The notes under the pieces were generated by a model that worked only from the letters and a program-made list of their open reading frames with translations, was not told the origin of the DNA and made no database searches. This document shows positions 2,890-12,908 of a stretch of 64,000 nt of DNA, one piece after another; position 1 is the first letter of the stretch, and every line of letters begins with the position of its first letter. Position numbers and translations under genes: made by a program. Source of the DNA: Melioribacteraceae bacterium (lineage in GTDB: Bacteria > Bacteroidota > Ignavibacteria > Ignavibacteriales > Melioribacteraceae); contig JAEINS010000004.1 in the NCBI GenBank assembly GCA_016342755.1, forward strand, positions 186,001 to 250,000, given 5' to 3'.

Positions 2890-5800
2890 TTATTTATATA
2901 GCCAGATGCGTAAAAGTGATAATAGCTTTTCAACTTCTAAAGGTTTTGGCAGATAATCATTTGCACCGGCTGCAATACATTTTTCTCTATCATCTTTCAT
3001 TGCCTTGGCAGTTAAGGCAATAATAGGCAGGTTCGTAAATTTATTGTTTTTTCTTATATTTATCATTGCTTCATAACCATCCATAACCGGCATCATTATA
3101 TCCATCAGAACAAGATCAACTTCATTTTCATCTTCAAGATATTCAACAGCTTTTTTACCGTTTGCAGCTTTCGAAGGAATCATACCATGTTCTTCTAAAA
3201 CTTTTGAAACAGCAAAAACGTTACGCATATCATCGTCAACAACAAGAATTTTTTTACCCTGTAGCAAAGTATCTTTGTCATGAAGCATAGAAATAATATC
3301 TTTTTTATTCTCAGGAAGTTTATCAACCACCTGATGCAGGAACATCGAAGTTTCGTCTAAAAGTCTTTCCTCCGATTTAACACCCTTAATAATAATTGAA
3401 CTCGCATGTTTATTAAGCTCGTATTCTTCCTCGTGTGTAAGTTCTTTGCCGGTATATATAATTACCGGAGGAAGTTCAACACCGCTAATTTTTTCCATTT
3501 CTTCAATTACTTCAAAACCAGAAAGATCAGGTAAAGTTAGATCAAGAATTATACAATCGTATCCGCCCTTAGAAATTTCCTGTATCGCCTTTTTGCCTGT
3601 ACTTACCGCGGTTGCGTTTATATCTTCGCCGCCAACAAGTTTTAAAATTGTTTTGCGAAGGTTCTCGTCGTCTTCAACAATTAATAATCGTTTTTCAGTT
3701 TCCTCCATCATTTTGGTCATTTTAACAAAAGCACTATTTAGATCCTCAATTTTAACCGGTTTTGTTAACTGACCCATTGCGCCTTTTTTGTAAGCGTCAA
3801 TTGTAGATTCTTCGGCAGACATAATATGCACCGGTATATGGCGTGTTTTTATGTTTTCTTTTAACTGATCAAGAACTGACCAGCCTTCAATTCCCGGCAG
3901 TCTTATATCTAATATAATTGCATCCGGAATATATTTGAACGCAAGCTCAAGTCCGGTTTCACCATCACCGGCATGTATACATTTAAAATCCTTTTTATGG
4001 CAATACTGATATAAAGTTTTAGCAAAATTAATATCATCCTCAATAACCAGTATTACTCTGTCGTCTTCCAATATAGATTCCCTGTCATCTTCTATTGTAG
4101 GAGTTGATTGAGGTCTTCTGATTTTAACACTTTTAATTGGATCTGTTTTTTTCTGATAAGTTCTTTCAACATCTTTCCCGTTTTCAGCCGATTCATGTAA
4201 TTCCGATTTTAAAGGAATATAAAGAGTAAATGTTGAACCACTATTAAGCTTACTTTCCAATTGAATTTCACCGCCAAGAAGTTTTGCAAGTTCGCGCGAA
4301 ATTGAAAGTCCTAAACCTGTTCCTCCAAATTTTCTTGATGAACTGCCGTCAACCTGCTGAAAAGCTTCAAATATTTCTAACTGTTTTGATTCTGGAATTC
4401 CAATTCCCGTATCAGTTACTGATATTGCAAGTGTTGAATCATGTTCAAGTTTACTATGATTAAAATGTACATTTGGTTCAGGCTTATGAAGCGAAATTGT
4501 AACACTGCCTTCCTCAGTAAATTTAATAGCGTTCGAAATTAAGTTTTTAAGAATCTGGTTTACTTTTTGGAGATCAGAAAAGACAACATTCGGAATATCG
4601 GCTTCCGTTCTAATATTTAAATTAATTCCTTTTTCGTCTGCAACATGACCAAATTGCTGTCTAAGTATAGCCACAATTTCTGTGACCGTAATATTTTCCA
4701 AATTAACAGTCATTTTGCCAGCTTCAATTTTTGAAAGATCAAGAATGTCATTAATCAGATTTAATAAATCAATACCGCTATTATGTATAATTTCAGACGA
4801 TTCAATTTCGTCATTATCAAGATGGCCGGTTTTATTATCAGCTAAATTTTTAGATAAAATTAAAAGACTGTTAAGAGGAGTTCTTAATTCGTGAGACATA
4901 TTAGCTAAAAATTCTGATTTGTATTTGCTCGATATTTCTAACTCTTTTGCTTTTTCTTCTAAAACATTCTTTGCTTCTTCAAGGGCACTATTTTTCTTTT
5001 TTATCTCATCCTGCTGCTTTTCAAGAGATTCAGTTTTTTCTTCAAGTTCTTCATTTATTACCTGCAGTTCTTCCTGCTGCGATTTTAATTCAGCTTCAGA
5101 ATGTTTTAGTTTTGCAGTATGTTCTTCAAGTTCTTCGTTGGTTGCTCTTAGTTCTTCCTGCTGTTCTAAAAGTTCCTTAGTCTGTGTTTGAGTTTGTTCT
5201 AAAAGCTTGTTTGTTTTATCGCTTATTAAAGCTGAGTTAATTGCTATTGCAATACTGGATGAAACATTTTTCAAAAACTCAATTTCCAAATCAGTAAATT
5301 CTTTAATAGTTCCAAGTTCAATTACACCAAATACTTTATCCTCAAATACTAAGGGAACAACTATTATGTTTTTAGGTAAAGAATCTCCTAACGATGATGA
5401 AATACGGACATAATCATCAGGTACTTTTTCAAGACATATCAGTTCTTTTTCAAATGCCGATTGTCCTACTAATCCTTCGCCAAACTTAATTTTGTTGTTC
5501 AGATTTTTTCTTACAGAATACGCAAATGCTCCCGTTAAAGTTAATTCAGTCTGTTCTTCGTTTGCCAGATATATAGTTCCCAATTGGGCATTAAGCCGTT
5601 TTGAAATATAATTAATTACACCTTTTGCAAGAGTTGTTAAATTTTGTCCGCCACGCATTTTTTCCATTATCTGATGCTGTCCGGATTTAATCCAGTCGGT
5701 TCTTTCATTACTTGTTTTAGAATCAAGTAATTTTTCAGACATTGAATTTAATACCTTTGCCAATCTGTCTTCATCCGATCTGACTTTAATCTTAGAAGAA

Positions 5801-6978
5801 AAATCGTCTTGTGAAATTCTTTCAGCCATATCAATTATTTTAGTTTCATCAGAAATATCAATAATGTATTCAATAGCACCATAAATTTTTCCTTCCTTAT
5901 CCTTTAAAGGGCTGCTTATATAGCGAATAGGAATTTCTGAATTGCCAATTGGATTGCAAAAAGTATCGCCGGTACATTTTTCATCAGTCCGCATAGCCTG
6001 ATCAGCTCGGCATTTTGAAGTTCTGCAATGCTGAGTGTTAAAAAGATTATAACACTTAGCATTTTTCCAACTGTTATCAGACTTATTGGTCATTTCTTCA
6101 GCGGCTTTATTAATGAACAAAACATTAAAATCAGTATCTATAACATGTATAGGAGTCGGGATATTATTTAAATAATCAATTTTACTTTCTACATCCAGCC
6201 TGTACTCTATTAATCCGTTTTTCATTGTATCAAATGATTTTGCCAGAATTCCAATTTCATCTTTCGAGTCATAACTGATTTTTGCGGTTAAATCGCCTTT
6301 GGTAATTTTTCTAAGTCCAGAAGCAACTTCTAACACAGGGTTCCGAATTGATCTTGTTATAAAATATGCAATAGAACCGGTTGCAATAAACGCAAGAGCA
6401 AATAAAATCATCAATTGCAGTTTACTGTTATTTGCGGAAGTTTCGGCGTTAGAATAAAAATCATCGGCTTTATTACTTGCAAAATCAATTATATAATCCA
6501 TTTCGCCAATTAATTCATCAACAATCTTATCATCGCCGTTTTTCATTCTGTCAAGAGCTTCTTCCTTTTTATCATCCAACATTAATCTGTAAGTTATTTC
6601 TCTAAATTCCTGACTCTCTTTTATTTTGGAATATGCAATTTCAATTTTAGTTTTCTCGCCTAAAAATCTTTCAAAAACAATTTGAAATAATGTATCAATG
6701 TTCTTAAATCTTTCAACAGCAATAGAGTTAAGTTTTTCAATTTCTGCTTTTGTGTTAGCATTTACCATATCAGTCATTACTTTCTGGGTAATTATAATCT
6801 CTGCTTTAATATCACGAACAGCATTACTTACAACCAGGGGATGGCTATAAAGATTTTCCATTTCCCCGGCTATATTATAGACCTGTAAAATTGCATTTAT
6901 TCCCATTATAGATGAGAATAAAATCACAATTCCAAATCCCAATGCCAGCTTTTTTCCAAGCTTCATGTTTTTAATCAT
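2890..6978 (-). CDS. Hybrid sensor histidine kinase, 4HB-HAMP-PAS-GAF-HK-REC-REC-REC
   Basis: 1362 residues. Two membrane helices (about 12-32 and 188-208) bracket a periplasmic four-helix-bundle region like that of chemoreceptors. Then follow HAMP (about 209-262), PAS (about 265-375), a second HAMP-like stretch (about 380-420), GAF (about 445-590), a long Glu/Gln-rich coiled coil (about 595-685), HisKA with His696 (MSHELRTP), HATPase (about 800-925) and three receivers with Asp1024, Asp1146 and Asp1293. The PAS domain carries five cysteines (309, 318, 323, 335, 341). It sits between cheB and the receiver-kinase, each junction about 11 bases. The design matches kinases that merge the receptor and CheA roles. 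The signal is unknown. Confidence 0.9.
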   Translation of the reverse strand: MIKNMKLGKKLALGFGIVILFSSIMGINAILQVYNIAGEMENLYSHPLVVSNAVRDIKAEIIITQKVMTDMVNANTKAEIEKLNSIAVERFKNIDTLFQIVFERFLGEKTKIEIAYSKIKESQEFREITYRLMLDDKKEEALDRMKNGDDKIVDELIGEMDYIIDFASNKADDFYSNAETSANNSKLQLMILFALAFIATGSIAYFITRSIRNPVLEVASGLRKITKGDLTAKISYDSKDEIGILAKSFDTMKNGLIEYRLDVESKIDYLNNIPTPIHVIDTDFNVLFINKAAEEMTNKSDNSWKNAKCYNLFNTQHCRTSKCRADQAMRTDEKCTGDTFCNPIGNSEIPIRYISSPLKDKEGKIYGAIEYIIDISDETKIIDMAERISQDDFSSKIKVRSDEDRLAKVLNSMSEKLLDSKTSNERTDWIKSGQHQIMEKMRGGQNLTTLAKGVINYISKRLNAQLGTIYLANEEQTELTLTGAFAYSVRKNLNNKIKFGEGLVGQSAFEKELICLEKVPDDYVRISSSLGDSLPKNIIVVPLVFEDKVFGVIELGTIKEFTDLEIEFLKNVSSSIAIAINSALISDKTNKLLEQTQTQTKELLEQQEELRATNEELEEHTAKLKHSEAELKSQQEELQVINEELEEKTESLEKQQDEIKKKNSALEEAKNVLEEKAKELEISSKYKSEFLANMSHELRTPLNSLLILSKNLADNKTGHLDNDEIESSEIIHNSGIDLLNLINDILDLSKIEAGKMTVNLENITVTEIVAILRQQFGHVADEKGINLNIRTEADIPNVVFSDLQKVNQILKNLISNAIKFTEEGSVTISLHKPEPNVHFNHSKLEHDSTLAISVTDTGIGIPESKQLEIFEAFQQVDGSSSRKFGGTGLGLSISRELAKLLGGEIQLESKLNSGSTFTLYIPLKSELHESAENGKDVERTYQKKTDPIKSVKIRRPQSTPTIEDDRESILEDDRVILVIEDDINFAKTLYQYCHKKDFKCIHAGDGETGLELAFKYIPDAIILDIRLPGIEGWSVLDQLKENIKTRHIPVHIMSAEESTIDAYKKGAMGQLTKPVKIEDLNSAFVKMTKMMEETEKRLLIVEDDENLRKTILKLVGGEDINATAVSTGKKAIQEISKGGYDCIILDLTLPDLSGFEVIEEMEKISGVELPPVIIYTGKELTHEEEYELNKHASSIIIKGVKSEERLLDETSMFLHQVVDKLPENKKDIISMLHDKDTLLQGKKILVVDDDMRNVFAVSKVLEEHGMIPSKAANGKKAVEYLEDENEVDLVLMDIMMPVMDGYEAMINIRKNNKFTNLPIIALTAKAMKDDREKCIAAGANDYLPKPLEVEKLLSLLRIWLYK

Positions 6979-6988
6979 AACATGTTCC

Positions 6989-7576
6989 TTATATATTAAT
7001 TTCTGCTAATTTATTTAGTTTTTCTGCAATCTGATTCGGGTTCAAAATAAAATCCACTTCACAAATATCAATTACAGACTGAGGCATAACTTCTATGTAC
7101 GCCGTAGCGGGATCTTGAACTATAACCAATCCGCCATTTTTTTTAATATACCGCGCTCCCTTAGCTCCGTCTGAATTGGCACCGGTTAGCACAACTGAAA
7201 TTATTCTGGATTTATATACATCGGATGCTGAGTAAAATAATACATCTATTGATGGCCGTGCGTAGTTTATTCGCTGATCGACTGAAAGACAAAAGGTTTT
7301 ATCAGACTCTATCAATAAATGGTAATTTGGCGGTGATGTATAAATTACACTGTTTTCAATTAATTCTTTCTCATCAGCTTCTTTAACTTTAAGTTTGCAT
7401 TTTTCCTGAAGCAGCATTGCAAAATAATTATCCGATGAGGGAGCAATATGGTTTACAATAATTACCGGCAAGGGGAAATTATCTTTTATTCCAGATAATA
7501 TTTCTGGAAGAATCTGCATTCCGCCGGCAGAAACACCAATTACTACAATCTCATATTTTTTTTTATTAAAACTCAT
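6989..7576 (-). CDS. cheB: CheB-type protein-glutamate methylesterase (no receiver domain)
   Basis: 195 residues, covering only the CheB catalytic domain. The Ser-His-Asp triad is visible: Ser16 in GVSAGG, His43 in VNHIAP and Asp136 in LTGANSDGAKG. The usual N-terminal receiver is absent, so activity is not controlled by in-cis phosphorylation. Its start overlaps the cheR stop as TAATG, indicating translational coupling. In such operons, CheR/CheB are thought to methylate and demethylate a partner signalling protein; here the neighbouring hybrid kinase or a distant chemoreceptor are candidates. Confidence 0.9.
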   Translation of the reverse strand: MSFNKKKYEIVVIGVSAGGMQILPEILSGIKDNFPLPVIIVNHIAPSSDNYFAMLLQEKCKLKVKEADEKELIENSVIYTSPPNYHLLIESDKTFCLSVDQRINYARPSIDVLFYSASDVYKSRIISVVLTGANSDGAKGARYIKKNGGLVIVQDPATAYIEVMPQSVIDICEVDFILNPNQIAEKLNKLAEINI

Positions 7577-8400
7577 TAGCTCAGTTTCTGATATACCCTT
7601 TCTTTTAGTCCCAGAGTATTATACTTTTCTTCTATGGTAGAAAACTTCAACGATTCTTTAGATCCGAGACACAAAAAGCCCCGTGGTATAAGGCTTTTAT
7701 CAAATAGGTCAAAAACTTTCCCCTGCAGTTCTTTGTTAAAATAGATCATAACATTGCGGCAAAAAATTAAATGCATTTCACCAAAAACTGTATCAGTAAT
7801 AAGATTATGATTTGCGAAAGTTATATTCTTCTTCAATTCATTATTCATCATTACAGAATCATATTTAGAATGATAATATGAAGAGAGCGAATCCTTACCG
7901 CCGGCATCTCTGTAATTGACAGAATATTTTTTAATATTCTTGATATCGAAAATCCCTTCCTTTGCTTTGTTTAGCGCAATGTTATTAAAATCGGTTGCAT
8001 AGATTTGTGTCCTTTCTAAAAGTCCTTCTTCTTTTAGCAATATAGCAAGCGAATAAACTTCTTCGCCGGAAGCACATCCGGCATGCCAGACCTTTATAAA
8101 CGGATAGGTCCTAAGAATATCAATTACATTTTCACGAATAAATTTATAAACAAAAGGATCGCGGAACATTTCTGTTACGGTAATTGATAAGCGCTTTATA
8201 AATAAATTGAATGTTTTTTTATTATGAAGTACTAGCGGAATTAATTCTGAAATCTTTTCGATCTTATGTATTTCCATAAAACTGAGTATCCTTCGTCTTA
8301 CAGATGCCATTGCATAATCACGAAAATCGTATCCATATTTTTCGAAAACCGCTTCAAGCAGAAGCCGTATTTCTAACTCTTCAAGCTTTGAATCAGACAT
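7576..8400 (-). CDS. cheR: CheR-type protein-glutamate O-methyltransferase
   Basis: 274 residues. An N-terminal helical CheR_N domain (about 5-75) precedes a SAM-binding methyltransferase domain with motif I as AGCASGEEVYS near residue 120, and the CheR-typical FCRNVMIYF and LCLGSKESL segments. It transfers methyl groups from S-adenosylmethionine to receptor glutamates. It is the first gene of the operon cheR-cheB-hybrid kinase-receiver kinase, with no obvious gene in the 140 bases upstream before the cytochrome terminator. No pentapeptide-tether TPR region is fused to it. Confidence 0.9.
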   Translation of the reverse strand: MSDSKLEELEIRLLLEAVFEKYGYDFRDYAMASVRRRILSFMEIHKIEKISELIPLVLHNKKTFNLFIKRLSITVTEMFRDPFVYKFIRENVIDILRTYPFIKVWHAGCASGEEVYSLAILLKEEGLLERTQIYATDFNNIALNKAKEGIFDIKNIKKYSVNYRDAGGKDSLSSYYHSKYDSVMMNNELKKNITFANHNLITDTVFGEMHLIFCRNVMIYFNKELQGKVFDLFDKSLIPRGFLCLGSKESLKFSTIEEKYNTLGLKERVYQKLS

Positions 8401-8541: not shown

Positions 8542-11220
8542 CTACATTAGACCTTCTTTTTTTACCAATTCAGCATTTCTAAATTTTCTCATCATGTTTT
8601 CGTGGTGTATTGGATCTTCCATGCTTTTTTTATGGCATACATAACAAGATTGTTCCGAACCGATTGGCAAAGGGTTTCCCTGGTATTGCACGGGCTGAAT
8701 ATTATCCCGGTTTACTCCCCAGATATTTCTTGCCGGAAATTCAGCATGAGGAGCGTTGTGGCATAATACACATCTAATACCCGCATCGTCAGTTCTGTAT
8801 CTAAATATTTCTGGTTTATTAGGCGACCATTTATTAAAGCTTGTAAAACCTTTCTCCGGTTTTTCGTAATCTTCATGGCAGCTTAAACATTCAGGTTCAT
8901 TTTCCCATGGAATCCGGGGATCAATTTCATCTTGCGAAGAAAATCTAACAGGCTTAATTATATCTAAATATTTTTTGGAAGCTGTTTTATATGATTGTCC
9001 TTTTAACACCGAGATTGCATGATCATTTATATGTCCGTGGCAATCAACACAAGTCATACCCAGAACATCATGAATTGACCTGCTGCATTTTGTGCTTCCG
9101 TCCGGGCTATCAGGATGACATAATCTACAGGCGTTTTCATTTTCAAAAGGCATATAGTTTGAGTGCCAGCCATGCATAGCAGCCGCTAAATCAAGAGTCT
9201 GGTTTGGATCTTTATTTTCAAGATCAGGATGAAGGTGACATGCCTTACAGTTTTGAGGTTTTCCGTCTTTTGCTTCTTCATATAGATTTGTACCGCTTAT
9301 TCTATCGTGAGCATGAAGTACATTTATAGCCGTCTGATCGCTAATACCAGAAACCCCTTCATACCTCCATCCTCCGGCATGGCAGTTTTTACATCCGGCT
9401 TCTGTTGAATTAGGCGCAACAACTTTAGTTTTCATAAGCAATTTACCGGTTTCCATATCCTTAGCCTCAATATCAAATAACGCATAAGGATTATAAGGCA
9501 TATCATCCGGATATGGTGTTATAGGAATGGCAGATGCTATGAATACAACTTTGTCTTCATTGTAAGTAAATTTACCGGACATTCCATTTCCGGTTAAACC
9601 AATATTTTTTTCAAGTTCTTTTCCATAATTTGATTTAGAATATTCCCAGAATTGCGGATCACGGTTTACAGGCTCCTCAAATCCCTTTTCAACTTTATAA
9701 GTAAGTTCAACTCCTTCTGTTATTATCTCAGGAGTTTCACCACGCTTAATAAGTGTAGCCTCAAAAGTATTTTTGGGTGGAAGAATTACCCACCATGGAT
9801 CACTATCAAAGGTACAAGACATTCCTAAATCGTTCCATACAAAAAGAACGTAGTCATCATTTTTTTTATCAAACGCAGGAACTTCATGGTTCAGTTTTTT
9901 TAGATGTGTAAATTTCTCAGGCACTCTTTCAATCTTTCTCTTATGAAGATCGCCAATTATAAATTCTGCAAGTGCTTCTTTCTCTTTTACTGTTCCAAAT
10001 ACCGGAGGCATATATTTTAAAATCCTGCCTTGTCCTTCAAGATGCGAAAGCATACCCATATAGGTTAGATTTTTAGTTTTCTTAAGAATATCATTTTTTA
10101 CACCGTCTATTGTATGGCAGCATAAACATTGAATGTTGAAAAGTTCTCTTCCGGCTTCTCTTATATTATCATTTGTAACTTCTTTTATTGGTGTCCACTT
10201 TGCATGTTTTAAGACACCTTCTTTATTCAGCAAATCAGCATCTTTCAAAAGAATTGAAGTTGAGTACATGTGATCTGTTATTATAAAGGGTTTTCTTGCA
10301 TACTCTCTTAAATATTCAAATCCGCCGTACCATGCCTGACCAATAATAAGAATTACAAATATTAGTATTTTCTGATAAACTGGTTTAATTTTAAGATTAA
10401 TAAATAACCCAAAAACAAATATTAAGATTGAAGAAACTATAAAAATTAAGATAACAGATGATGCCTGAGAATTCATGGTAAAATTTGTAATTCTAAGTGT
10501 TTCGGGAATTGAATATAAATACCAAATTCCACCAATTATAATAAAGGGAACAGGATACAATAACCATTTAGTACAATATTTAAGCATCTTAGATCTAAAC
10601 TTACTTTTGAGCGAGAATACAACGGTTACATATCCAAACATTCCGGCAATCATTGCCGCGGCAGCAGATCTAAATAATAGTGATGGAAAATATGTTGGAT
10701 TAAAAAATCCGTCCCAAAACTCTCCTGTTTCTAACCACTTGCCAGGTGTAAGCATATAAGCCAGAATTCCATTTATAACAACCATACTTAGCCAAGCGAA
10801 TAAAAAATAAAGGAACGCGACATTTAATCTTTGTTTCTGTTTCATTACATCAAATCGATAATGATAAATTAACAATGCAACAATTTCTCCAATAAAGAAA
10901 ACCCATTCAATTGCCCAGCCAAAAACAAAGTTGTGGATTAAAGAAGAAGTAGCTGCAGGATTGGCAAGCGCAATAATAAACCATATTCCAACACCAGTAA
11001 CGCCGCCAGCCACCATTGTTAATAACAAAAAGAATTTTGTATGTTTTCGTACATATTGTGTTAATTCTAAATTGTTTTCTTTTGTACTTTTGAGATCGGT
11101 TAACCATAAAAACAAACCTCCGCCAACAGCTAAGTGAGCTATAAACGCGTGAAAGACTGATATTATAGCAACTAAAGTACCACTTGTTAATTCGTATAAT
11201 TCCCATATTGGATAATTCAT
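8542..11220 (-). CDS. CydA-like membrane domain fused to eight-haem cytochrome c
   Basis: 892 residues. Residues 1-310 form about eight to nine membrane helices resembling cytochrome bd oxidase subunit I: FHAFIAH at 23-29, VTGVGIW at 74-80 and AIEWVFFIGE at 103-112. A single-haem segment follows with CLCCH at 365-369. Then comes a mostly beta region (about 450-600) with the WNDLGMSC motif also known from other multiheme proteins. Seven more CxxCH sites follow at 610, 658, 698, 724, 778, 817 and 859. The soluble part is probably periplasmic. Its ATG overlaps the stop of the small subunit (TAATG). I infer a quinol:cytochrome oxidoreductase passing electrons outward along the haem chain. O2 reduction is not demonstrated, and the family is close to the CydA-A' (OR-C type) proteins. 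Confidence 0.8.
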   Translation of the reverse strand: MNYPIWELYELTSGTLVAIISVFHAFIAHLAVGGGLFLWLTDLKSTKENNLELTQYVRKHTKFFLLLTMVAGGVTGVGIWFIIALANPAATSSLIHNFVFGWAIEWVFFIGEIVALLIYHYRFDVMKQKQRLNVAFLYFLFAWLSMVVINGILAYMLTPGKWLETGEFWDGFFNPTYFPSLLFRSAAAAMIAGMFGYVTVVFSLKSKFRSKMLKYCTKWLLYPVPFIIIGGIWYLYSIPETLRITNFTMNSQASSVILIFIVSSILIFVFGLFINLKIKPVYQKILIFVILIIGQAWYGGFEYLREYARKPFIITDHMYSTSILLKDADLLNKEGVLKHAKWTPIKEVTNDNIREAGRELFNIQCLCCHTIDGVKNDILKKTKNLTYMGMLSHLEGQGRILKYMPPVFGTVKEKEALAEFIIGDLHKRKIERVPEKFTHLKKLNHEVPAFDKKNDDYVLFVWNDLGMSCTFDSDPWWVILPPKNTFEATLIKRGETPEIITEGVELTYKVEKGFEEPVNRDPQFWEYSKSNYGKELEKNIGLTGNGMSGKFTYNEDKVVFIASAIPITPYPDDMPYNPYALFDIEAKDMETGKLLMKTKVVAPNSTEAGCKNCHAGGWRYEGVSGISDQTAINVLHAHDRISGTNLYEEAKDGKPQNCKACHLHPDLENKDPNQTLDLAAAMHGWHSNYMPFENENACRLCHPDSPDGSTKCSRSIHDVLGMTCVDCHGHINDHAISVLKGQSYKTASKKYLDIIKPVRFSSQDEIDPRIPWENEPECLSCHEDYEKPEKGFTSFNKWSPNKPEIFRYRTDDAGIRCVLCHNAPHAEFPARNIWGVNRDNIQPVQYQGNPLPIGSEQSCYVCHKKSMEDPIHHENMMRKFRNAELVKKEGLM

Positions 11221-12287
11221 TACACAGCCTCCCCGTTTGTTTTAGGAAAACCAATTTTTAACATATAACCAATTGCAACAAGACCTAACAAAAGAACAAA
11301 TAAAAATAAAGCCAAAACACCATATTGGGGAACAAGTATTAGTTGATTAAGTGTAAAATTATCTTCAAGATACATCATTCGTAAATTATGTCTCGTTGTA
11401 ATCATCGCTACCATAGTAATAAAAAGGGTGATAATTGTAAGATTAAAATTGCCTTTGAACGCAACTATTATTGAAATAATTCCAAATAAAAAGCCTATTA
11501 ACAGAACTAAAGAACTAACTATATCTTTTCCCATAAAGTTGGGAATAAATTCCGACGGAATTGCCAGTAAATACCAGGTTCCAACTAAAACCTGAAAAGA
11601 AGTTGCAATGGCAAAGATTTTTAGTGAATTCTTAATAAGTACTTCAGAGTTTTCATGCTTCTTGAATTTATAAATAAAAGCAAAGAACAAAGATCCTACG
11701 GCAATAGAAGCTGTTATAAAATGTAAATATCTAGGAAATATTGCCGGATCAGAGAAATTAAGAATGGTTCCGCCTCTATTTTCAAAATAAGCAGACCATT
11801 TTTCTGGCTGTACCATTAAAGAATTGTTGGTAACAAGCATAAGACCTATATATAACATAATTAAAATTGAACAAGCAATGGCAGCTTTTGAAAATCTGGG
11901 AGATGAAGTTAATTTTGCTGAATGAATGTAAAATCCATAATAAGCAATTACCAGTAATGGAATAATCATAATCCAGTAAACAGCCATTAAAACTGAACTT
12001 GAATAGAACAGATTACCAAAAACCACTTGTAAAAAGAGTAATGGCGGAATTGCAAAATTAATTCCCAATGCAATTAAAATAGGAAGTTTAACGGCGGCGG
12101 GTTTATACAAAGCGGTATATTCCTCATCTTTCATTTTAAACCGTTTTACTAACGTGATTATTGCTCCTCCAAGCGCGGCATTAATTACTATTATGTGCAG
12201 AAGGAATAGCAACTGCTCAAGTAAAATAAATACCCACGATGGTGCTGGAATTGTATCGGGAGAAGGAATAAGAGAATTAGGATCCAT
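11220..12287 (-). CDS. CydA-like membrane small subunit (CydA'-type)
   Basis: 355 residues with about nine predicted membrane helices and no haem c motif. It is distantly like cytochrome bd subunit I: LLHIIVINAALGG near residue 30, FAIPPLLFLQ near 80 and RYLHFITASIAVG near 190, whose His aligns with the region of the b558 ligand in CydA. No CydB gene is nearby, so the complex is probably a CydA-CydA' heterodimer rather than CydAB. It is translationally coupled to the multiheme subunit (TAATG). Assignment rests on motif resemblance, and an NrfD-like origin is the alternative I considered less likely. Confidence 0.7.
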   Translation of the reverse strand: MDPNSLIPSPDTIPAPSWVFILLEQLLFLLHIIVINAALGGAIITLVKRFKMKDEEYTALYKPAAVKLPILIALGINFAIPPLLFLQVVFGNLFYSSSVLMAVYWIMIIPLLVIAYYGFYIHSAKLTSSPRFSKAAIACSILIMLYIGLMLVTNNSLMVQPEKWSAYFENRGGTILNFSDPAIFPRYLHFITASIAVGSLFFAFIYKFKKHENSEVLIKNSLKIFAIATSFQVLVGTWYLLAIPSEFIPNFMGKDIVSSLVLLIGFLFGIISIIVAFKGNFNLTIITLFITMVAMITTRHNLRMMYLEDNFTLNQLILVPQYGVLALFLFVLLLGLVAIGYMLKIGFPKTNGEAV

Positions 12288-12299
12288 ACTTACCTCTGT

Positions 12300-12734
12300 T
12301 TATTTAATTTGATGTTTTCTAAGTAACACTATTGATAATACAAATATGAATACAAGAATTATTAAAACTCCAGTTTCAATCATGTAACTTGTAAATAACT
12401 CATGAACATAAGCAGTTTCAACACTTATAATAAGTATTCTTCTAATTGCAGCTATTAAACCTACCATTAAAAAAGGCTCAGCGCTAAGTGTATGTTCTTT
12501 GATCGAAATTTTAATTGTCGCTAATATTTCAATTATCATTAGTAATAGAAGGGTTTTAGCGATTAATTCTATTATTACTTTTATACTTGAAGTATTTTCA
12601 GTAAAATGAAAAATAGTTATAACTTCATTATAAATTAGCAGTGCGGCACTTATAAATAGAAAAAAAGCAATAATTACATATATAGCGGATTCACCTTTTG
12701 AAATAAGGCTTTCGAGGTTTATCTTAGTTTTCAT
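12300..12734 (-). CDS. PsiE-like four-helix membrane protein
   Basis: About 144 residues from the ATG at 12734, which has an AGGTG ribosome-binding site; a TTG four codons upstream is less likely. There are four hydrophobic helices, with the conserved-looking stretch VGLIAAIRRILIIS between helices 2 and 3, as in the PsiE (phosphate-starvation-inducible E) family. Its molecular function is unknown. It lies 12 bases upstream of the CydA'-type gene and is likely the first gene of the respiratory operon, which makes an accessory or assembly role possible. Confidence 0.65.
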   Translation of the reverse strand: MKTKINLESLISKGESAIYVIIAFFLFISAALLIYNEVITIFHFTENTSSIKVIIELIAKTLLLLMIIEILATIKISIKEHTLSAEPFLMVGLIAAIRRILIISVETAYVHELFTSYMIETGVLIILVFIFVLSIVLLRKHQIK

Positions 12735-12908
12735 TTTCACCTGCAAATTTATGAAATACCATTAGGCAAATGCCATAATAAGATGCTTAAATCAATTTAA
12801 CGAAAGAGAAAATTAAACTCAAAACCATGAGTCGTCTTTTTTAAAAAATTATTTTACATTTTTAAATAATGTCAGTTTTTGCATAATTTTAAAAACATTT
12901 TTGAAGAC

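Follow-up and report, generated by a model that had tools for sequence, protein, structure and literature searches.

A CydA-like subunit fused to a heptahaem module in a Melioribacteraceae bacterium: a candidate cytochrome-fed relative of cytochrome bd

The 2021 classification of the cytochrome bd superfamily by Murali, Gennis and Hemp reportedly includes the OR-N (CydAA′) and OR-C families. As described in the available portions of the literature, both families possess two CydA-like subunits and no CydB, and their CydA lacks the quinol site (PMC10839748, PMC12342949, PMC13189123). For OR-N, the same sources name cytochrome c as the likely donor, and CydAA′ has been called a putative cytochrome c-oxidising O2 reductase (PMC10839748; see also PMC12342949). 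A gene pair with these features, encoding the CydA-like subunits A and A′, lies in a stretch of 64,000 nucleotides from a Melioribacteraceae bacterium (contig JAEINS010000004.1; hereafter the window). In contrast to OR-N and OR-C, as far as these families can be compared by description, a cytochrome c domain and a heptahaem domain are fused to subunit A.

The bd-like proteins of Nitrospina were reported, in the part of the genome paper available, to lack the Q-loop and the quinol residues (PMC3578206). Like A, the Nitrospina/Nitrospira bd-like oxidase (PMC3578206) and TO_3 and TO_4 of Manganitrophus (PMC9040806) retain the N-terminal half of CydA with its haem ligands and have no Q-loop, according to the same partial texts. 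However, the N. gracilis protein is described there with 14 helices (PMC3578206), whereas the structure model of A contains eight, and the available sections of both papers mention no heptahaem fusion (PMC3578206, PMC9040806). The Manganitrophus clusters, as presented in the accessible text, bring bd-like proteins together with parts resembling complex III (PMC9040806), and the genome paper of Caldithrix abyssi names a cytochrome bd and no such fusion in the sections available (PMC5317091). Our literature search, judged by titles and opening lines of abstracts, returned no description of a CydA–heptahaem fusion, and it yielded no paper on multihaem cytochromes linked to type IX secretion; an earlier mention of the fusion in the 2021 superfamily classification is possible.

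Subunit A is encoded by one intact open reading frame (ORF), in which CxxCH motifs start at residues 365, 610, 658, 698, 724, 778, 817 and 859, i.e., one motif followed by a group of seven. The string WNDLGMSC (residues 462–469) falls between them, within beta strands modelled with low confidence at residues 457–602, and the ORFs of A and A′ overlap at base 11220, inside the string TAATG. An earlier note on this DNA had described a single 892-residue chain with 1 + 7 CxxCH motifs and a WNDLGMSC beta region, coupled by TAATG to a second CydA-like subunit, and the ORFs and motif positions bear this out. Its count of about nine CydA-like membrane helices, by contrast, is to be replaced by the eight of the model. 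The heptahaem part of that model mostly has a predicted local distance difference test score (pLDDT) below 50, from an alignment of seven rows in which only the window and L001 span the whole part. Whole fused genes were found at four loci (the window, L001, L024 and L025), each encoding 886–896 residues with eight CxxCH motifs. The recurrence of this fused frame at four loci makes it improbable that a frameshift or two joined genes produced the chain; on this recurrence and the single clade formed by the five fused rows, a frameshift, chimera or misassembly was rejected. The fused gene is present in a single copy in its own genome.

The relationship of A to CydA was established by several comparisons. 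The A profile matches Geobacillus CydA, the hhalign comparison with E. coli CydA gave an E-value of 3.1e-7, and VIA-align placed the model of A closest to CydA chains (Table 1), the next best folds being alternative complex III subunits (Z 17.0–18.2) and polysulfide reductase (Z 16.7). Across the fold comparisons of both A and A′, unrelated helical proteins scored far below CydA, with alternative complex III at 17.0–18.5. The Pfam scan of the window's A gave no bd match (PF01654 absent), and PF01654 matches the relative L061 at 2.4e-16. For A′, a significant profile relation to A and a CydA-like model were obtained (Table 1); however, no significant relation emerged when it was aligned with canonical CydA by itself (E 0.1), which weighs against CydA kinship of A′. 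The top Foldseek E-value for A′ belongs to a CydB chain, whereas VIA-align and the TM-score favour CydA. Profile, hhalign and VIA-align results thus support the earlier description of a CydA homologue that forms a multihaem chain and is accompanied by a paralogue as second subunit. The membrane-bound urate oxidase that carries a cytochrome c domain was considered as an architectural analogue and discarded; no urate oxidase family appears in the Pfam tables for A.

In CydA, H19, E99, E107 and E445 serve the haems and the oxygen site. Residue equivalences were assigned with three MAFFT modes against E. coli CydA, in which H24, E105, E112, E306 and R309 of A align with H19, E99, E107, E445 and R448, respectively. 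Conservation was then read from 35 full-length A sequences, comprising a 29-row set, L054, L056 and four plasmid rows; the 29-row set, which also underlies the tree discussed below, left out L054 and L056 (both of family f21) and the partial L057, and the tree was not rebuilt with L054, L056 or the plasmid rows. One further hit from the A-core search of the phylum sample, L059, is a match to A′. The residues H24, E105, E306 and R309, the CxxCH motif of the c haem and its likely ligand M404 are present together in 31 of the 35 sequences (27/29 plus the four plasmid rows), and all are absent from the remaining four, which belong to one family, f21. E112 is Glu in 33/35 and Asp in two Thermus rows.

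The quinol site shows a different picture. The position of the Q-loop, between helices 6 and 7, is occupied by about 13 residues in the model of A, and no His counterpart of CydA H186 was found in the 35 sequences by hhalign or MAFFT. At this position hhalign places R184, which MAFFT shifts one place on, and residue 184 is Arg in 35/35 sequences. Because both the Q-loop and the His at the H186 position are absent, the label of a quinol oxidoreductase given by the earlier note is unsupported for A. Canonical CydAB shares with A the CydA fold and the oxygen-site residues but differs from it in having a Q-loop, H186 and an adjoining CydB, and A in turn carries c haems; the absence of Q-loop, H186 and CydB at the locus rules out an ordinary cytochrome bd. 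The note's statement that no CydB is present holds for the genes adjoining A, although an ordinary CydAB is encoded elsewhere in the same genome.

A genome scan for relatives yielded six true matches (L001–L006); a seventh, L007, proved to be a brief alignment arising by chance within a gene for an ABC transporter. The protein of L001, a Caldithrix metagenome-assembled genome (MAG), is 56% identical across the whole chain with the gene order PsiE–A′–A, and that of L002, a Desulfovibrionales MAG, is 43% identical up to the end of its contig in the beta region. L003–L006 (Calditrichota, Omnitrophota, Planctomycetota and Acidobacteria) encode A with one or two CxxCH motifs and without the heptahaem part, and genomes G054 and G323 hold fused forms with eight. 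The whole-chain query matched in 7/58 relatives (E 1e-3) and in 8/164 genomes of the order, most matches covering one half only. The A core is present in 21/395 genomes of the phylum sample, and the heptahaem part in 7/395 of the phylum sample and 27/391 of the class sample. The fusion is real and rare, and is found in Calditrichota, Thermodesulfobacteriota (on a cut contig) and the window's own phylum. In the tree, the five fused rows, among them L002, cut after the start of the beta region, form one clade (support 95/92), and ten Rieske/cytochrome b rows form another (98/96).

In this sister clade, cytochrome b adjoins A in 10/10 tree rows and a Rieske protein in 9/10, the tenth locus being cut. 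By family, cytochrome b adjoins A at 8/8 f39 loci, followed by a Rieske gene at seven (none is shown at L043, which is short), and both genes are present at all four f21 loci. The two partners were confirmed by Pfam in L061, L062, L063, L068 and L069, where each run is completed by A′. The run of A′, Rieske protein, cytochrome b and CydA with haem c (L061:6843-11075, L062:6241-10462, L063:4295-8514) resembles a bc-type complex joined to a bd-like oxidase. In one further genome (G053, L028:3421-10779), A, with haem c, and an A′ that itself carries two CxxCH motifs lie beside two DsrE genes, TauE and two SoxA/TsdA-type cytochromes in a sulfur-looking locus. L060:5160-8881 holds two tandem copies of CydA with haem c and then one A′, near a cbb3-type-looking cluster. 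The earlier note had proposed an export of electrons to an acceptor other than O2; this proposal loses ground, as the residues of the oxygen site are conserved and are kept or lost jointly with the c haem, and as relatives adjoin Rieske/cytochrome b or, in one genome, SoxA/TsdA-type cytochromes, i.e., electron suppliers.

The f21 proteins bear on another possibility, namely that A has degenerated from a bd-type ancestor, its membrane part having given up oxygen chemistry and serving just to hold the cytochromes on a respiratory complex, a role that the f21 proteins may have. These have lost H24, E105, E306, R309 and the c haem yet remain in a Rieske/cytochrome b operon, whereas the window's A and all other fused rows covering these positions keep the residues, and we consider a mere anchoring function of A quite unlikely. 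The degenerate relatives still found beside Rieske/cytochrome b are L068:4268-8401 and L069:4041-8159, together with L054 and L056, which are degenerate in the same way; L068 and L069 also adjoin cytochrome c oxidase-like genes.

The heptahaem domain is related to a separate cytochrome family, and the module fused to A is the body of these apparently secreted proteins, in which Pfam recognises Cytochrome_C7, MtrC/MtrF II/IV and T9SS (type IX secretion system) tails. Among the 27 heptahaem copies of the class sample, 3 are fused and 24 stand alone. All 24 standalone copies contain seven haem motifs (CxxCH plus CX4CH), and the standalone form begins with a signal-like stretch directly followed by the beta region. 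By pattern, 19/24 carry a PNPF-type tail resembling that of the type IX secretion system (T9SS), with three ORFs reaching the locus end, and the tail is absent from the 3/3 fused copies. PF18962 (T9SS tail) exceeded its cut-off in five of six scanned standalone copies; the sixth, L031, has a visible tail and a sub-threshold FlgD_ig match. Like A, these apparently secreted cytochromes carry the W..(L/S)GMxC beta region followed by seven haem motifs, whereas the fused form has no signal peptide, no T9SS tail and is tied to A. The beta region also resembled H. pylori CrdA faintly (Z 7.9), at a level within noise, and this match was not used.

Five non-motif His residues are conserved in 10/10 sequences, fused and standalone together, and the four whole fused chains share eight; the eight suit bis-His transfer haems and would be enough for seven haems. 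The domain II/IV profile PF22113 of MtrC/MtrF, outer-membrane cytochromes with a decahaem fold, was also matched, close to its cut-off (Table 1), with seven haems here. The His residues bear on the alternative that the heptahaem domain is itself a catalytic reductase, e.g., of nitrogen or sulfur oxyanions, with A/A′ as its membrane electron partner. Multihaem reductases are well known, and C469 and C712, conserved in 10/10 fused and standalone sequences, are unexplained, both of which favour such an activity. However, all seven motifs of the fused part are plain CxxCH, the conserved His residues suffice for six-coordinate haems, and no match to a catalytic multihaem family was obtained beyond a sub-threshold NrfH (E 0.066), and we regard a reductase as very unlikely.

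Because the oxygen-site residues are conserved together with the c haem, the quinol site is missing from A and electron suppliers stand in the sister operons, we lean, with moderate confidence, towards A/A′ being a cytochrome-fed oxygen reductase of the bd family, with electrons moving in through the haems. In this proposal, A and A′ would form an inner-membrane enzyme of the cytochrome bd superfamily that uses no quinol at the canonical site. Electrons would enter on the periplasmic side via the fused heptahaem domain, move on to the c haem with His/Met ligation after the last helix of A, and then to a haem pair held by H24, E105 and E306, where O2 would be reduced. The heptahaem arm would thereby substitute for the Rieske/cytochrome b of the sister operons. 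The direction of electron flow and O2 as the substrate are what we infer from these comparisons, and the haem content of the membrane part, the donor and a complex uniting A, A′ and the PsiE-family protein are likewise presumed. A more speculative extension, to which we give little probability, is that the oxygen reductase acquired a heptahaem module of the secreted type by gene fusion and is thereby wired directly to electrons from outside the membrane. Reduced cytochromes in the periplasm or at the cell surface, or minerals that supply them, would then power the reduction of O2 at the inner membrane, and neither the quinone pool nor soluble cytochrome c would be needed.

Several observations weigh against the oxygen-reductase proposal. 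The host already possesses other oxidases, i.e., CydAB and a COX1-family oxidase with cbb3-like-looking neighbours. In f21 the c haem and the ligands may have disappeared together in just one event, and because the Rieske/cytochrome b genes stay at these loci, the loss leaves the donor link unproved. The main evidence comes from A′: H189, which lies close to where H186 would fall, is retained in 14/23 rows, distributed as 0/5 rows with adjacent Rieske genes and 14/18 without (Fisher p 0.0037, uncorrected for kinship), and this pattern may reflect a quinol-linked haem in A′. In the fused system L025, position 189 is Lys. The standalone relatives of the arm look exported, which also fits electron export.

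The points on H189 and on the standalone relatives favour the reverse direction, in which quinol is oxidised by A/A′ at a site on A′ and the electrons leave by way of the c haem and then the heptahaem wire, bound for acceptors in the periplasm or at the surface. In addition to the retention of H189 mostly where Rieske genes do not adjoin and the T9SS-type tails on the standalone relatives, A′ H31 and R186 are present in 23/23 rows. However, A has neither the Q-loop nor H186, its oxygen-site residues and c haem are conserved together, and no gene for a partner surface protein or acceptor adjoins the operon in the window. Since A′ may hold a quinol site, we keep the outward direction as a rather improbable alternative to the inward one.

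The coordinates of the features are collected in Table 1. The tight gene run extends past A′ to a PsiE-family gene 12 bp upstream of it; a gene of this family lies tightly upstream of A′ at three of the four complete fused loci (the window, L001 and L025) and was not seen at the fourth, L024.

Table 1. Coordinates of subunit A, its domains and the neighbouring subunits in the window, and of related genes at other loci
Feature	Coordinates	Strand	Basis
Subunit A: CydA-like membrane domain, cytochrome c, beta region and heptahaem domain, 892 residues	8542..11220	-	ORF; eight CxxCH; frame shared with L001, L024, L025
CydA-fold membrane domain of A, residues 9-316	10273..11196	-	VIA-align Z 27.2-29.1 to CydA chains; A profile vs 5doq_A 1.7e-6; eight helices in model
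Cytochrome c domain of A, residues 353-425 approximately; haem motif C365-H369 with M404 as the likely Met ligand	9946..10164	-	Weak PF13442, E 0.0046, below cut-off; profile matches to solved c-type cytochromes; M404 aligned in 31/35
Beta region of A with WNDLGMSC, residues 455-604	9409..9858	-	Low-confidence model strands; M467 and C469 in 10/10 fused and standalone sequences
Heptahaem domain of A, residues 606-892, seven CxxCH	8545..9405	-	PF14522 30.1 bits (cut-off 24.8); PF22113 30.8 bits (cut-off 30); seven motifs also in the standalone relatives
Subunit A′: CydA-like membrane protein, 355 residues, without c haem	11220..12287	-	Model matches CydA at VIA-align Z 23.1-25.2; related to A in profile comparison (E 1.4e-6); no Pfam family
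PsiE-family membrane protein, TTG start as listed (ATG four codons in), possible third subunit	12300..12746	-	PF06146 2e-8; same place and family in L001 (2.1e-10), L025 (1.3e-7)
T9SS-exported-looking heptahaem cytochromes, W..(L/S)GMxC beta region, CX4CH and CxxCH	L029:8114-9589, L030:7997-10591, L031:8187-9689, L032:8578-10017, L033:7142-8914, L022:928-2367		
Plasmid A/A′ pairs	L101:6235-8801, L102:8001-10564, L103:7983-10604, L104:5998-8564		Annotated without reference to cytochrome bd

The plasmid search matched four records, in the A core only, none of them covering 80% of the query. All four plasmids, two from Thermus thermophilus, one from Agrobacterium and one from Methylosinus, carry an A/A′ pair, which the records label only as 'cytochrome c' or 'c-type cytochrome' with 'hypothetical protein' or 'cytochrome C'. 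Just downstream of A, on the same strand, lie CheR, CheB and a large hybrid histidine kinase (window 2890-8400). Elsewhere in the host genome is a cluster that we take to resemble alternative complex III from its NrfD match, ORF sizes and haem counts. A 453-residue ORF beside it was suspected to be a second CydA type and was rejected, as it did not match the A profile at E 10.

CydAA′ enzymes and their relatives with haem c were already known, and the heptahaem fusion is a variant newly found among CydAA′-type enzymes. The authors of the N. gracilis study called the function of its own bd-like oxidase enigmatic, in the part of that paper available (PMC3578206). By naming a candidate module for electron entry, a natural fusion lets the question of what feeds the bd-like oxidases without a quinol site be tested in one polypeptide. 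The comparison of the loci suggests that one CydA core is combined with different electron suppliers, i.e., Rieske/cytochrome b, SoxA/TsdA-type cytochromes or, as in the window, a heptahaem arm.

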